Below the pieces are notes generated by a model. The model did no database searches, was not told the DNA's origin, and was given only the letters and a program-made list of their open reading frames with translations. This document shows, piece by piece, positions 25,869 through 32,781 of a stretch of 64,000 nucleotides of DNA (its first letter is position 1; the number at the start of each line of letters is the position of its first letter). Origin of the DNA: Chloroflexota bacterium. GTDB taxonomy: Bacteria; Chloroflexota; Anaerolineae; Anaerolineales; Villigracilaceae. The stretch lies in contig JAJYOU010000008.1 in the NCBI GenBank assembly GCA_021795965.1, positions 1 through 64,000 of the forward strand, written 5' to 3'. The translations under genes were made by a program, and so were the position numbers.

Positions 25869-25907
25869 TGTCCTGTTTACTAACTACCAATCAATCAAAT
25901 TTTTGCT

Positions 25908-25990
25908 GCATCACCGGGCGGAATTTACGACCGCAGGGAGTGCAGAGCATAGCCGCCTGCCCCGGTCCTTTCGGGGTATAGACGACTCGG
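25908..25990 (-). repeat. repeat copy A: gene tail encoding ...CGRKFRPVMQ
   Basis: About 80 bp nearly identical to copy B at 27072-27150. On the minus strand one frame reads VYTPKGPGQAAMLCTPC and then GRKFRPVMQ before a stop. The last ~28 nt also match the 3' end of the DUF35 gene. A hairpin (H3) follows. No start or ribosome site exists, so it is a repeated 3' gene end rather than a gene. Confidence 0.65.
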
Positions 25991-26031
25991 CCCACGCGGG
26001 GGGATTTGAGGATGTCGATCTAGCGCTCATT

Positions 26032-26087
26032 ACAACCGGCTGGCTATGGCGCGCAACGGAATTGCCAGTCCGGGTTGATGCGGTTGT
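26032..26087 (-). repeat. attC-like imperfect inverted repeat downstream of the DUF6994-like gene
   Basis: Outer arms ACAACCG (26032-26038) and CGGTTGT (26081-26087), inner arms CTGGC (26040-26044) and GCCAG (26064-26068). On the minus strand it begins CTAACAACCGCATCAAC, which resembles the start of Vibrio-type integron attC repeats. The other end, GGTTGTAATG, does not fit the R' consensus exactly. A cassette recombination site is plausible but unproven. Confidence 0.45.
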
Positions 26088-26103
26088 TAGTTGCTGGTTA
26101 TAC

Positions 26104-26808
26104 TCATTTTCCTTCACTTTTTATATAATTTTCTATTCGTTTGTTTCTTGATTTAATGAAGCCAACCACCCTTTCTTTGTATAAAAGATATTGGTTGACA
26201 TCGGAAAATGACGGACGAGTTTTGAAACCATCAAAAGGCAAATAAAATTTAATCTTATGGTTTTCATTTATCAGATCATCCAAGAAGAAAAAATGGATGT
26301 ATCCCATAAAATCATGGAACAATTCGAAAAAATTCTCATATCTCAATAAAGTATTATGAAGTGGACTTTTTTCTCCAGAATAATAGAGACGGATGCATTC
26401 TAATGTTAAATCAAATCTGTCATCAATTAAACTGTTTACTCCGCGAGCTTGATTGATTGTATGTTTTCCATCAATTCTATTATTTGGAAAGATAATATAA
26501 GCCGCAATGGTAGAACCGGTATCAAAAAGCTCATTTACTTCATTTGGAATTTGTTCTGTGAGCCACTTCTTACTTTTATGATCTTTATACGAATGTGTTA
26601 TAGCATCGCTGCCCAAAAAAAACTCTCCAAGTTCTGACTCGTAATATAAATAAGCGCCATTTTTGTCATCACGTAATTTTAGGAGGTTACCATTTGGCAA
26701 TGGTTTGCTCCACAATATCTTATGATATTTACGGAGTGTTGGACTGGTGCTGTCAGGGTCACCGCCCTTTGAATCGGAGTAAAAATTAAAATTAGTGTCA
26801 ATTATCAT
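26104..26808 (-). CDS. DUF6994-family-like protein
   Basis: A 234-aa soluble protein starting MIIDTNFNFYSDSKGGDPDS followed by PTLRKYHKILWSKPLPNG, a pattern I associate with DUF6994 proteins. FFLGSDAITHSY, NQARGVNSLIDDRFDLTLEC and EFF-like aromatic-rich helices follow. The function is unknown. An open frame continues 56 codons upstream, but it runs through the inverted repeat at 26855-26957, so the ATG at 26808 is the sensible start. The ribosome site is poor. The gene is flanked on both sides by attC-like inverted repeats, and it is AT-rich. Confidence 0.8.
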   Translation of the reverse strand: MIIDTNFNFYSDSKGGDPDSTSPTLRKYHKILWSKPLPNGNLLKLRDDKNGAYLYYESELGEFFLGSDAITHSYKDHKSKKWLTEQIPNEVNELFDTGSTIAAYIIFPNNRIDGKHTINQARGVNSLIDDRFDLTLECIRLYYSGEKSPLHNTLLRYENFFELFHDFMGYIHFFFLDDLINENHKIKFYLPFDGFKTRPSFSDVNQYLLYKERVVGFIKSRNKRIENYIKSEGK

Positions 26809-26854: not shown

Positions 26855-26957
26855 GCACATAACGGTTTGCCTTCGCGAAGCATGGCGCTGGGACAGGCAT
26901 GAACGAGGCTGGGGAGGAGGGAAAACTTGAAGCCAGAAAACTGCTTGCCGTATGTGC
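26855..26957 (-). repeat. attC-like imperfect inverted repeat upstream of the DUF6994-like gene
   Basis: Arms GCACATAACGG (26855-26865) and CCGTATGTGC (26948-26957) pair with one bulged A. Read on the minus strand the 3' arm ends CCGTTATGTGC, close to integron R' ends of the GTTATGY kind. The gene start follows about 50 nt later. The fold length (~100 nt) fits attC sites. Interpretation is inference. Confidence 0.45.
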
Positions 26958-27000
26958 CGCAGAATCCTATAAACACAATTTAATTATGCCACCAGAATCA

Positions 27001-27026
27001 AAAAGCGCCTCCATTTTTGGAAGGCG
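27001..27026 (-). terminator. hairpin terminator H4
   Basis: CGCCTCC pairs with GGAAGGCG (one bulge), followed on the minus strand by CTTTTTGATT. It directly follows repeat copy B. Confidence 0.7.
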
Positions 27027-27071
27027 TTTCGATCTTAACAAGAACAGTGCGTTCAAACGCGAGCGCACCCT

Positions 27072-27150
27072 ACTGCATCACCGGCCTGAATTTACGACCG
27101 CAGGGAGTGCAGAGCATACCCGCCTGCCCCGGTCCTTTCGGGGTATATAC
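27072..27150 (-). repeat. repeat copy B: gene tail encoding ...CGRKFRPVMQ
   Basis: Nearly identical to copy A. The minus strand reads VYTPKGPGQAGMLCTPC and then GRKFRPVMQ before a stop. Nineteen consecutive bases (catcaccggcctgaattta) are shared with the 3' end of the DUF35 gene at 28.58 kb. Hairpin H4 follows. Confidence 0.65.
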
Positions 27151-27310
27151 GGAATGGCTTAGAATAGCAATCTAGGGCCTGCGTTAGCCTTATGTGGGTT
27201 GGATACGGGTTATGCTTGGGAGCAGGATTCTGCCGAGGGGTCGCAAACCTTAATAATACAGCGAATCCCGCTTGTGAGCTGCACGCCGTGTTAGCCTGCG
27301 CTCACTTTCA
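27151..27310. other. spacer with partial cassette-site-like motifs
   Basis: On the minus strand it contains GGCTAACACGGCGTGCAGC (near 27298-27280) and GGCTAACGCAGGCC (near 27190-27177). Both resemble R''-type starts of attC sites. No complete fold is evident, and no gene is present. Confidence 0.35.
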
Positions 27311-28575: not shown

Positions 28576-28977
28576 TCACGCACCCATCACCGGCCTGAAT
28601 TTATAGCCGTAAACAATGACCCCGCGCTCGTCGCCGTCATTCCGAATTTTTCGCGTTACCATCTCGACGGGCATGCCAATTTCGACCGGCTGTTCACCAA
28701 GATCGGTCAGCTGGGCTGTGATCATGGGTCCTTCAGTAAGTTTGACAATTGCCACGGTGTAGGGTGCGTTGGAATCATACCCGGTCGGGGCTTCATAAAT
28801 CGTGGTGTAAGAAAAAATTTCACCCTTACCGCTAAAGGTGTACTGGGTCCTGGCTTCATTCCCGCAGTTTGGACAAATATCGCGGGGCGGAAAAATCTTG
28901 TAATCACAGTGAGGGCAAACCTCACCGACCAGACCATATCGTTGTTGTTTTAAGCGCCAGTGGCGTGCAATTTCCAT
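28576..28977 (-). CDS. Zn-ribbon OB-fold protein (DUF35) of the thiolase/HMG-CoA synthase complex
   Basis: A 133-aa protein with an N-terminal zinc ribbon (CPHC near residue 20 and CPNC near residue 35) and a C-terminal OB fold ending VYGYKFRPVMGA. In archaea the DUF35 protein bridges acetoacetyl-CoA thiolase and HMG-CoA synthase and holds a shared CoA site, which lets the intermediate pass directly. Here it is the last gene of the same set, after the thiolase-like gene. Start at the ATG at 28977 with AGGAG 9 nt upstream; a longer frame to 29034 lacks support. Diverged copies of its 3' end lie at 22.5, 25.9 and 27.1 kb. Confidence 0.93.
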   Translation of the reverse strand: MEIARHWRLKQQRYGLVGEVCPHCDYKIFPPRDICPNCGNEARTQYTFSGKGEIFSYTTIYEAPTGYDSNAPYTVAIVKLTEGPMITAQLTDLGEQPVEIGMPVEMVTRKIRNDGDERGVIVYGYKFRPVMGA

Positions 28978-29130
28978 ATTAAAAAACTCCTTTTGAAGAT
29001 GCCTGAGTGTGATTCTATTCCCGGGCACTATCAAAGTCTATCAAACAGGCTATCAATCCCTATAATCTTTATCATAAAAAACAGACAGCCTGGTTTAGCT
29101 GTCTGGAATCTTCAATTATGGGCATTTCGT

Positions 29131-30291
29131 TTAGCTGGTTTTTTTCAAAACGAAACTAACTGCCGTGGATGCCGGTCCGCCAAGGGATTGAATTAATGCG
29201 TGCTGGGGATTTTCAACCTGGTTTCTTCCAGCGGAGCCTCTCAGCTGCAGGGCTGCTTCAATCGCCTGGTAGATTCCACTGGCTCCCCCGGTAAAACCGC
29301 GGGCTTTCAAACCTCCCATGGTGGCGCAAGGAATCTTTCCTTTCAACCCAATCGAACCATCAGCTGCCAGCTGCCATCCCAGCCCACGTTTGGCAAAACC
29401 AGCAGCTTCCAGGGATAAGGCTGCGTAAATGCTGAACGCATCATGATATTCAAAGAGATCGATCTGTTCGGGAGAAATTCCGGCTCTTTTTAATGCCTGG
29501 GTGGTGGCAATCTTAGCTGCTTGAAATGAGAGGAGATCCTGCCGGTCATGAAGAGCCAATGTGTCGGTGGAGCTGCCCATTCCCGCGATGCTGATGAGTG
29601 GGTGGGAATATTTTTGTGGAATCAAATCACGGCGGGTTAAAATAAGCGCTGCTGCGCCATCTGCAAGGGGAGCTGCATCAAACAGATTGAGAGGGTCACA
29701 AACTTTTTCCGCCCGGGCATAAGTTTCAGGTTTTATGGCTTTTTGGTACATGGCAAATTTGTTTCCCGCCCCGTTGGCGTGTGCGGTCAATGCAAATCCG
29801 GCGAATCCATCAGCAGGTACTTTGTACTCGTAAATATAGCGCTGCATTAAGAAGGCTGCCTGGGCGACCGGGGTCAATCCCTGCATGGCTTCATAATCAC
29901 TATCCATGCCAGATGCCAGGGCAGCTTCCACATCGGTCCCGATTTTATCAGTGAATTTTTCAACGCCGACAACCAGGGCAGTATCCACCAGACCGCTGGC
30001 GATGGCAAGGTAACCCTGGCGCAGAGCCGCGCCTCCTGAAGCGCCGGCTGCCTCCAGCGTGACTGCTTCGATGCCGGTCAAACCCGCATAATCAGCCAGC
30101 AATCCACCCAGGTGAGCTTGATTGGAGAGATTAAGAGAAAGCATATTCCCAACGAAAAGAGCCTGCGGTTTTAATCCGCCGCTATCATCCAATGCCTGTT
30201 TGATAGCCTGATAAGCGAGATCTCGCAGGGAAATTTCCCATTGTTCCCCGGCAGCAGTTTGACCTATTCCAGAAATGACAATTTCTTTCAT
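29131..30291 (-). CDS. thiolase-fold protein of the mevalonate operon, catalytic Cys and His missing
   Basis: A 386-aa protein of the archaeal/SCP2-type thiolase family, normal in length. Archaeal thiolases have a nucleophilic Cys in a motif like EAACASGGAA; this one reads EAAGASGGAA with Gly at residue 83. The later GHPxGATG motif, which carries a catalytic His, reads GFTGGASG with Phe at residue 333. The His of EYHDAF (residue 283) is retained. Gene order (HMGR, HMGCS, this, DUF35) is that of a thiolase-HMGCS-DUF35 complex. It may be a non-catalytic partner, or use a different chemistry. Start ATG with AAGGG upstream, 29 nt after the HMGCS stop. Confidence 0.9.
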   Translation of the reverse strand: MKEIVISGIGQTAAGEQWEISLRDLAYQAIKQALDDSGGLKPQALFVGNMLSLNLSNQAHLGGLLADYAGLTGIEAVTLEAAGASGGAALRQGYLAIASGLVDTALVVGVEKFTDKIGTDVEAALASGMDSDYEAMQGLTPVAQAAFLMQRYIYEYKVPADGFAGFALTAHANGAGNKFAMYQKAIKPETYARAEKVCDPLNLFDAAPLADGAAALILTRRDLIPQKYSHPLISIAGMGSSTDTLALHDRQDLLSFQAAKIATTQALKRAGISPEQIDLFEYHDAFSIYAALSLEAAGFAKRGLGWQLAADGSIGLKGKIPCATMGGLKARGFTGGASGIYQAIEAALQLRGSAGRNQVENPQHALIQSLGGPASTAVSFVLKKTS

Positions 30292-30320: not shown

Positions 30321-31403
30321 TTATTTCATTTGCAGCTTGCCACGATAGCGTGCGTAGGTGGCGTAATCAATTTCAGTCCGGCGCGAAATATATTCCTGAG
30401 TTTTGGTTGCGCGACCCTGTGCGTCAAGCAGCTTATCTGTAACGACAATGTCAAAAGCATCTGAACCAGCTCCGGAACCAAACGAAACCATCAGGATCCG
30501 ATCACCCGGTTGGGCAATATCCAGGATGCCGGTTAAACCGATCAAGGCAGCCCCCGCATAGGTGTTTCCAATCACCGGCACCAGGAGGGAGGGAGCGATT
30601 TGTTCCAGGCTAAAACCCAGCATCCCGGCGACCCGCTGTGGAAACTTTGAGTTGGGCTGATGAAAAGCCGCCCACTTGTAATCAGAAGCCTTTGTGCCTG
30701 AAGCTTGCATTAAAGCCGTGGCTGCTTCGGTGATGTGTTTGAAATAAGCCGGTTCCCCGGTGAAACGCATGCCGTGTTCAGGGTACTTCTGATTTTCGCG
30801 GCGCCAGAAATCCGGGGTATCCGTGACATAAGAATAGGAAGAATTGATGACCGCCATGGATTCTTCGGCGGGTCCAACAATATACGCGGCGCCGCCCGCT
30901 CCAGCCGTGTATTCGAGTGCATCTCCGGGTTTTCCCTGGGCGGTATCCATGCCAATTGCCATGGCATAACGAGCCATACCCGAACCAACCAGACCCATCG
31001 CAGCAACCAGGGCTTCTGTGCCAGCTTTACAGGCAAATTCCCAATCAGCTGCCTGTGTATTGGGAACAGCGCCAATAGCTTCAGCCACCAGCGTGGAGGA
31101 GGGTTTTACCGCATAGGGATGTGATTCCGAGCCAACCCAGACCGCCCGCAACTCCATGGGATTAATTTGTGCCCGAGCCATTGCATTTCTGGCAGCTTCA
31201 ATCGACATGCTGATCACGTCCTCGTCCAATCCGGGAACAGCCTTTTCCTTGATGGGCAGTCCGCCTTTGCCGCCGGTCCAAACCCTTGCCACTTCCCGGG
31301 CTGGCAGGCGGTAACGGGGAACATAAGCGCCGTAGCCAACGATTCCGACCGGTTTATTGGGCTTGAGCAGGGTATTAGATGTTGTTTCGCTGGAATTTGT
31401 CAT
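30321..31403 (-). CDS. hydroxymethylglutaryl-CoA synthase, archaeal type
   Basis: A 360-aa enzyme that condenses acetyl-CoA with acetoacetyl-CoA to HMG-CoA. It has the archaeal-type start [16 protein letters not shown], the catalytic Cys at about residue 125 in [12 protein letters not shown], the His motif FHQPNSKFP, and [12 protein letters not shown] near the C-terminus. All key residues are present, unlike the adjacent thiolase-like protein. The longer frame starts at 31412; I chose the ATG at 31403 because AGGA lies 8 nt upstream. It is tightly linked to HMG-CoA reductase (18-nt gap) and the thiolase gene. Confidence 0.95.
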
Positions 31404-31421
31404 GAATACCATCCTGAATTT

Positions 31422-32699
31422 CTATTTCATCAACTCTTTCAACAATGATTCCGCCCGGTCAATCCGGATCGTTTTCTCCGCAATCATACGGGCAGAAATT
31501 TTTTCAATCATATCACCGCGCGCGCCGGCAGCTACGGCGACCTGCCTGGCATGCAGGGTCATATGTCCGCGTTGGATTCCTTCGGTTGCCAGGGCACGCA
31601 GAGCAGCCAGGTTTTGAGCCAAGCCAACTGAGACAATAATTTCCGCCAATTCTGAAGCTGTTTTGACTCCCATTAATTTGAGTGCCGCACGGGCAGCGGG
31701 ATGAACCCTGGTTGCCCCGCCAATAATTCCGACAGCCATGGGCATTTCAAGGGTGCCTACCAGGTCTCCATTTGCATTTTTACCCCAGGTGCTCAAGCTG
31801 GTATATCTTCCCGAACGCGAAGCATACGCATGCGCTCCAGCTTCGATCGCCCGCCAATCGTTCCCCGTGGCAATCACCACGGCATCAACACCGTTCATGA
31901 TGCCCTTGTTTTGCGTGGCAGCTCGGTATGGATCGACCGCTGCAAAAACATACGCCGCGATAATTCCATCGCGGACACTTTCTCCAGTGTACTGGTCAAA
32001 AGCAAGATCTTGAATTGGAATAGTGCAGCGTGCCCGGGTGATGCGCCTGTCTGCCAGGTTTGATAGGATGCGCAGATGGACCCTGCCTCCGGTAATCGCC
32101 TCAACCTGGGGCGCAAGCCGTTCACAGGCAGTATTGACAGCATTCGCGCCCATGGCATCGCGCACATCATAAATCAGGTGGATCACGATGAAGCCCCCGA
32201 TGGCTGAATCCTCAAAAATATGCACTTCCAAATCGCGCGCCCCGCCGCCAAATTTTTTCAAAACGGGATCGATGGAATCGGCTGAAGCCAGCAACTCGGC
32301 TTTATGCTCATACAGTTTCAGGGAGGCTTCCTGCAAATTGGGCAGATCAAGCACTTGCATTTGACCAATCATTTCGGGGGAACTGGAAGTTGCCTGAAAA
32401 CCGCCGGAACTGCGGGCGAGCTTGGCCATAAAGGATGCCCCCGCCACGACTGAAGGTTCTTCAATGGCCATGGGAACGAGAACATCCCGACCATTGACCA
32501 GAAAATTTAAGCCGATACCGAGAGGCAAAGAATGGACGCCAACCACATTCTCTATCATGTGTTCGGCTGCATCAAGCTCGAGACCGCCCGTTTTCCAGGC
32601 TGCCAGATCATCCGGCGTCAAATTAGCATTTTCCGCAGCTTGGGATAGGCGTTCATCAGCATTCAATTTGTAAAACCCTGAAAGGCGAGAGGTTCCCAT
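31422..32699 (-). CDS. hydroxymethylglutaryl-CoA reductase, class II
   Basis: A 425-aa class II (so-called degradative) HMG-CoA reductase that makes mevalonate from HMG-CoA with NAD(P)H. It shows ENVVGVHSLPLGIGLNF with the catalytic Glu, EEPSVVAGASF, the Lys region NKGIMNGVDAVVIATGND and the terminal LHARQ with catalytic His. It lacks the membrane anchor of class I enzymes. In this operon with HMG-CoA synthase it is biosynthetic in role. Start at the ATG at 32699 (MGTSRLSGFYKL) with AGGAA upstream; an extended frame to 32735 begins at TTG. It is the first gene of the operon and divergent from the histidine kinase. Confidence 0.95.
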   Translation of the reverse strand: MGTSRLSGFYKLNADERLSQAAENANLTPDDLAAWKTGGLELDAAEHMIENVVGVHSLPLGIGLNFLVNGRDVLVPMAIEEPSVVAGASFMAKLARSSGGFQATSSSPEMIGQMQVLDLPNLQEASLKLYEHKAELLASADSIDPVLKKFGGGARDLEVHIFEDSAIGGFIVIHLIYDVRDAMGANAVNTACERLAPQVEAITGGRVHLRILSNLADRRITRARCTIPIQDLAFDQYTGESVRDGIIAAYVFAAVDPYRAATQNKGIMNGVDAVVIATGNDWRAIEAGAHAYASRSGRYTSLSTWGKNANGDLVGTLEMPMAVGIIGGATRVHPAARAALKLMGVKTASELAEIIVSVGLAQNLAALRALATEGIQRGHMTLHARQVAVAAGARGDMIEKISARMIAEKTIRIDRAESLLKELMK

Positions 32700-32781
32700 A
32701 AAAGTTCCTGTGGTGATCCGTCCTGGTAAAATCAAACGACCAACGATATTTTACTTTTATCTTCTGGCAAAACCTATCAAC

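Follow-up and report, generated by a model that had tools for sequence, protein, structure and literature searches.

The mevalonate operon on the minus strand of the 64,000-nucleotide stretch of DNA analyzed here (hereafter the window) raises the question of why a thiolase-fold protein without the catalytic Cys and GHP His of a thiolase is retained beside HMG-CoA synthase, as the sequence-only reading of this DNA had pointed out. The operon runs in the order HMG-CoA reductase (HMGR; 31422–32735; PF00368 and TIGR00532), archaeal-type HMG-CoA synthase (HMGCS; 30321–31412; TIGR00748, 530.6 bits against a cut-off of 353.35), thiolase (29131–30291; 386 amino acids), and DUF35 protein (28576–29034; zinc ribbon plus OB fold, PF01796 and PF12172), the true start of the last likely being the ATG at 28977–28975. 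Thiolase and HMGCS are the first and second enzymes of the mevalonate route to isoprenoids. HMGR and HMGCS are separated by 9 bp and HMGCS and the thiolase by 29 bp, the thiolase ORF is intact with an ATG start, and all three genes of the complex type (thiolase, DUF35, and HMGCS) are adjacent.

The sequence-only reading had proposed that the nucleophile Cys is replaced by Gly and the GHP His by Phe, and alignment confirmed both replacements. In phmmer alignments with the solved archaeal thiolases 7yvy and 6esq, a Cys stands opposite Gly83 (motif EAAGASGG; codon GGC, 30043–30045, minus strand) and a His opposite Phe333 (motif ARGFTGGASG; codon TTT, 29293–29295, minus strand). The His of the EYHDAF motif, His283 (codon CAT, 29443–29445, minus strand), is kept in this protein and varies across the clade described below. 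Because the change from His to Phe takes two base changes and because relatives share the losses, they are neither a sequencing error nor due to chance. Further, the fold and length remain as had been claimed: the N- and C-terminal thiolase domains (PF00108 and PF22691) scored above their cut-offs, PRK06064.1 matched over residues 1–384, and the matches span the full length of the protein. The AlphaFold2 model of the single chain reached a pLDDT of 94 and a pTM of 0.94, and a Foldseek search with it returned the thiolase chains of 7yvy and 6et9/6esq on top (TMq 0.95–0.96 for 6et9/6esq), followed by ST0096, SCP2 thiolases, TbSLP, Ltp2, Sal, BbsB, and PhlC. The closest solved sequence is Pyrococcus furiosus PFC_04095 (7YVY; 343 bits, 46–47% identity), which, unlike the window thiolase, has both the Cys and the GHP His.

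Alignment with relatives showed that the loss of the Cys extends beyond this genome and is common to a large Anaerolineae clade. When 61 genomes, that of the window and those of 60 relatives, were searched at the protein level, thiolase matches were found in 60 and, fragments and distant homologues aside, fell into two sets, with 51–75% and 44–50% identity to the window protein. None of the 50 loci of the first set, the window's own included, has the Cys, and the GHP His is absent from 49 of them, being kept in L041 (genome G031); HMGCS lies inside the fetched stretch at 49 of these loci and 2.4 kb away at the remaining one (L024, genome G012). All 21 members of the alignment of the second set have Cys/His/His (C/H/H) at the three positions. 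Calling the first kind dead and the second active, 51 of the 61 genomes carry a dead thiolase, seven an active one only, and three neither. Rows without the Cys in which the GHP His is kept (mixed; seven rows) lie inside the dead clade and were counted with it.

Similar results were obtained in wider collections, in which the labels come from the three columns 83, 283, and 333. The best 80 named loci from GTDB genomes, whose records name Chloroflexi/Chloroflexota, Anaerolineae, or members thereof, comprised 65 dead (including L141, which is without the Cys region), six mixed, and nine active loci; a named strain among the dead is Leptolinea tardivitalis YMTK-2 (L104), a cultured relative that also has HMGCS and DUF35. 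The best 30 loci of a class-wide search comprised 25 dead and five active ones, and nine of these 25 belong to families f48 and f49 of the same class and a different order. The dead-clade alignment matched 269 of 298 genomes class-wide, a figure that mixes dead and active thiolases. The same genomes occur in two of the collections, so that loci overlap, and nonredundant sets were used for conservation and trees. Profile scores do not separate the two kinds: against PRK06064.1 (cut-off 420), the window protein scored 380.8 bits, dead L104 367.7, and dead L109 443.5, compared with 440.6 and 456.2 for the active controls L053 and L067, and all five proteins, active ones included, missed the NF053570 cut-off of 600. 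Because L109 passes PRK06064.1, curated NCBIfam cut-offs were rejected as a marker of the dead state.

The dead thiolases share a single origin in trees. For a quick tree, 24 of 180 rows (short or identical) were dropped and the rest thinned to 113; in this tree of 115 rows, the 80 non-C/H/H rows formed one clade (SH-aLRT 100). After further thinning for the residue counts and the maximum-likelihood tree (L003, described below, is absent from both trees), a maximum-likelihood tree of 75 rows, from which columns 83, 283, and 333 had been removed, united all 36 dead and mixed rows in a single clade (support 100/97), recovered in 100% of 200 bootstrap trees. We place weight on this tree because the 33 active rows used for residue counts are C/H/H by labelling, and the tree separates the two kinds without those columns. 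Active rows beside HMGCS and DUF35 (families f24, f30, and f2) fall outside the dead clade, as does family f59, for which DUF35 alone was seen, at a contig edge. As judged from these trees, the loss of the Cys is one ancient event in the ancestor of many Anaerolineae. One locus, L046 (genome G040), has HMGCS, dead thiolase, DUF35, and active thiolase in one gene run and is likely a surviving tandem duplicate, the gene order suggesting a duplication scenario.

We next consider what the dead clade has lost and what it has kept, counting residues in 94 dead-clade rows (pairwise identity <85%) and 33 active rows. Position 83 is Gly in 61 of the 94 rows, Asp in 22, Glu in six, Ser in two, Gln in two, and Asn in one, with no Cys; position 283 is His in 64, Phe in 10, Tyr in six, Ser in six, Asp in three, Cys in two, Trp in two, and another residue in one; and position 333 is Asn in 45, Phe in 34, and His in six, plus others, so that each of the three positions holds six or more residue types within the clade. 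Of the columns conserved in active rows (127), 29 are relaxed in the dead clade; active-site loops account for 44 of the 127 and for 19 of the 29 (hypergeometric p 1e-4, with loop borders placed around known thiolase motifs after the list of relaxed columns was seen). Ten columns are newly conserved in the dead clade (A84, L90, T140, A145, M181, F204, A207, L245, W306, and L370) and offer no acid, base, or thiol and one hydroxyl, that of the Thr. The sole column with Cys in at least 30% of the rows is that of Cys322 (Cys in 37 of 94, Ile in 45), and a replacement nucleophile was rejected, no conserved substitute Cys being found across the 94 rows. The loops have kept E281, D284, R331, G332, and G336, with Asp284, Glu281, and the glycine loops present in nearly all rows. 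In a deep branch (e.g. L109, L117, and L170), the set Asp83/His283/Asn333 recurs (15 of 94 rows), which could hint at residual chemistry.

Selection was gauged from dN/dS in 46 pairs of related dead genes; in the 41 pairs with dS < 2, the ratio was 0.038–0.165. The pairs are not independent, some sharing loci. On these ratios, the dead clade is under purifying selection, and none of the dead matches is listed with a stop codon. The partners are conserved as well: Glu96, Cys128, and His251 of HMGCS are present in all 125 aligned rows, among them those from the window, which bears out the claim that the neighboring HMGCS keeps its active residues, and the four zinc-binding Cys of DUF35, kept in the window protein, are found in 90 of 90 aligned rows. 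By sequence and predicted fold, the window thiolase has the features of a pseudoenzyme: the fold is kept, the catalytic residues are lost, and dN/dS lies well below 1.

The genomic context of the dead thiolase was then compared among the 61 genomes. HMGCS scored above the TIGR00748 cut-off in 52, of which 50 carry a dead thiolase; in the remaining two, G037 and G051, the operon thiolase is an active one and a dead copy is lacking. All HMGCS matches lay below the cut-off in G031, which has a dead thiolase, and in G058, in which no dead copy was found. At E ≤ 1e-30, HMGCS was not found in G006, G011, G021, G024, G041, G042, and G053, and neither was a dead copy; of these seven, four have a full HMG-CoA reductase, G006 has a fragment, and G042 and G053 have none, and DUF35 matches of >150 bits occur in G011, G021, and G042, with a fragment in G006. 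Because reductase or DUF35 remains in some of these genomes, and because the gaps may be missing contigs, the joint absence of HMGCS and dead thiolase was dropped as a phyletic argument. Of the 51 dead-carrying genomes, 48 have a DUF35 orthologue (>150 bits). In some genomes, 8–19 kb separate DUF35 from the thiolase or the two lie on different contigs, and at some loci HMGCS and thiolase are 1–3 kb apart, which weakens the case for strict co-translation. In genome G018, a short ORF (L202:6193-6642) that immediately precedes the dead thiolase gene is weakly thiolase-like (22.7 bits), with no Pfam match. DXR of the MEP pathway was found in 0 of the 61 genomes by a search that was positive in nine of 14 control genomes, and the window's genome contains a gene above the mevalonate-diphosphate-decarboxylase cut-off. 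Because DXR was not found, the isoprenoid route served by the operon is probably the only one in these bacteria.

If the operon thiolase is dead, acetoacetyl-CoA would have to come from another thiolase, as the sequence-only reading had supposed; candidate genes for this are present, and the actual supply is inferred from them. In the window's genome, which is 62% complete, the search for an active-type thiolase returned a C/H/H paralogue (G000:C30:49887-51038) and four matches to TIGR01930 (AtoB/FadA-type). A C/H/H paralogue, with the residues seen in every case, occurs in 36 of the 51 dead-carrying genomes (that of G055 was pieced together from two contig ends), and all of the 15 dead-carrying genomes without one have TIGR01930 thiolases. 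The nucleophile Cys and GHP motifs were present in 12 of 12 TIGR01930 ORFs checked, which were picked by the motif NEAF and of which seven come from six of those 15 genomes; a second Cys motif pattern matched in four of the 12 only. The only genomes of the 61 without a TIGR01930 match are G037 and G051, and these same two alone have HMGCS next to an active thiolase without also carrying a dead one. The window's genome also encodes, at G000:C16:14816-15931 (L003), a thiolase-fold protein without the nucleophile Cys that adjoins a DUF35 gene; its YDSY motif sits where Ltp2 and Sal have YDHF and YDCY, and it is possibly a DUF35-linked aldolase.

Together, these observations point to the thiolase probably being a pseudoenzyme, the predicted noncatalytic subunit of an archaeal-type thiolase/DUF35/HMGCS assembly. 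The dead thiolase would still dimerize and bind DUF35 and HMGCS and would keep HMGCS assembled or stable with its CoA site complete; acetoacetyl-CoA would be made by the stand-alone C/H/H paralogue or an AtoB/FadA-type thiolase and would enter HMGCS from solution or via the vestigial thiolase pocket. The model for such an assembly is the complex of Methanothermococcus (6ESQ/6ET9), in which, according to an excerpt from PMC6392133, residues of all three proteins bind CoA; passages of PMC12329534 cite the archaeal thiolase/HMGCS complex for channelling of the intermediate via the shared CoA site and describe DUF35 partners as holding the subunits of such complexes together. The window resembles this complex in having the three gene types side by side, in the retained HMGCS catalytic residues and DUF35 zinc Cys, and in the structural match given above, and differs from it in that its thiolase, known here from genes, is without the nucleophile Cys and the GHP His. 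Against a pseudoenzyme scaffold, the retention of His283 in 64 of 94 rows and of Asp284, Glu281, and the glycine loops is perhaps more than a pure scaffold needs, and we also count against it the GHP His kept in six of 94 rows and the score of the deep-branch member L109 above a curated thiolase cut-off. It is possible, albeit doubtful, that the dead thiolase is a dedicated receiver, which would bind acetoacetyl-CoA made elsewhere and swing it via the fused CoA site into HMGCS; if so, channelling would have become independent of catalysis and would now serve as an import dock for the one isoprenoid route of these bacteria.

Other explanations for the retained protein fare less well than the pseudoenzyme reading. 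In type II polyketide synthases, KS-beta pairs with KS-alpha, and by analogy the dead subunit might pair with an active paralogue and tether it to HMGCS. The C/H/H paralogues of 36 dead-carrying genomes are consistent with such a hetero-oligomer, which may be possible in the gene run of L046, with its active and dead copies; nevertheless, we consider it unlikely, given that 15 of the 51 dead-carrying genomes have no such paralogue and that 19 of 20 paralogue loci (L053–L072) have no HMGCS or DUF35 homologue in the stretch taken, L067 being the one that has. Thiolases use the nucleophile Cys as the acyl acceptor, and replacement by Gly removes that acceptor. Weak acetoacetyl-CoA thiolase activity retained via another nucleophile is thus very improbable, even with His283 kept in most rows, and no substitute Cys is conserved. 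Least probable, to the point of being hardly credible, is a decaying gene, a relic retained only through its position in the operon: the active-site columns are relaxed, as decay would have it, but intact copies occur in families belonging to more than one order, and a single old loss was followed by long retention. The low dN/dS and the intact frames contradict a pseudogene.

The sequence-only reading had also offered new chemistry, in which the remodelled pocket (Gly/Asp83, His283, and Asn/Phe333) would catalyze another acyl-CoA reaction, aldol or decarboxylative, like those of Ltp2 and Sal. Passages of PMC12329534 describe these steroid aldolases as thiolase-fold proteins that have a DUF35 partner and an active site unlike that of thiolases, a combination that the window protein shares, and the retained fold, the kept loop residues, and the Asp83/His283/Asn333 set of the deep branch are in keeping with such a change. 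However, the catalytic Tyr of the aldolases (YDHF/YDCY) corresponds to His283 in the window (HDAF) and occurs in six of 94 rows, and the setting is a mevalonate operon, not the steroid side chain; an aldolase of the Ltp2/Sal type was rejected on the absence of this Tyr. Given the variation at positions 83, 283, and 333 across the clade and the absence of any newly conserved acid, base, or thiol, new chemistry is unsupported so far, and we regard it as distinctly unlikely.

Known systems bracket the proposed pseudoenzyme. PhlABC (PpATase), the Friedel-Crafts acylase of Pseudomonas protegens, likewise combines HMGCS-like, DUF35, and thiolase subunits, one catalytic-type subunit being dead; according to an excerpt from PMC6392133, its HMGCS-like PhlA is without the catalytic Cys and Glu, and PhlA and PhlB are regarded as needed for a properly folded PhlABC complex. 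It is, on that account, the mirror image of the window's arrangement, with PhlA dead and the thiolase PhlC active, and lies outside mevalonate metabolism. The active site is altered also in the thiolase-fold proteins TbSLP (5AB4-7) and ST0096 (4YZO); in ST0096, Ser stands opposite residue 83 and Trp opposite residue 306 of the window thiolase, and, unlike the window thiolase, ST0096 keeps the GHP His. Pseudoenzyme subunits and DUF35/thiolase assemblies are already known; searches of the open PMC literature gave no earlier report of clade-wide loss of the catalytic residues from a mevalonate-complex thiolase. The subunit has been kept across many Anaerolineae families with its catalytic residues gone, in what is apparently their sole isoprenoid operon, and the service of the thiolase subunit to HMGCS besides the making of acetoacetyl-CoA becomes a directly testable question. 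The results further suggest that acetyl-CoA acetyltransferase would be a misleading name for these genes.

Three further observations were made alongside. A second, separate clade of Cys-less thiolases (L183:2152-3519, L184:2344-3504, L185:2465-4102, and L186:2105-3322; genomes G038, G039, G057, and G058; support 100/100) has Thr for the Cys and keeps both His, with no HMGCS or DUF35 homologue within the stretches taken. At one of these loci, an intein-splicing domain lies within an RtcB RNA ligase gene (L184:3513-5495). In the window itself, two plus-strand ORFs (25903–26151 and 26899–27162) encode nearly the same peptide, HHRxEFTTAGSAEHxRLPRSFRGI, and the DUF6994 gene there thus seems to lie between copies of a repeated DNA element.
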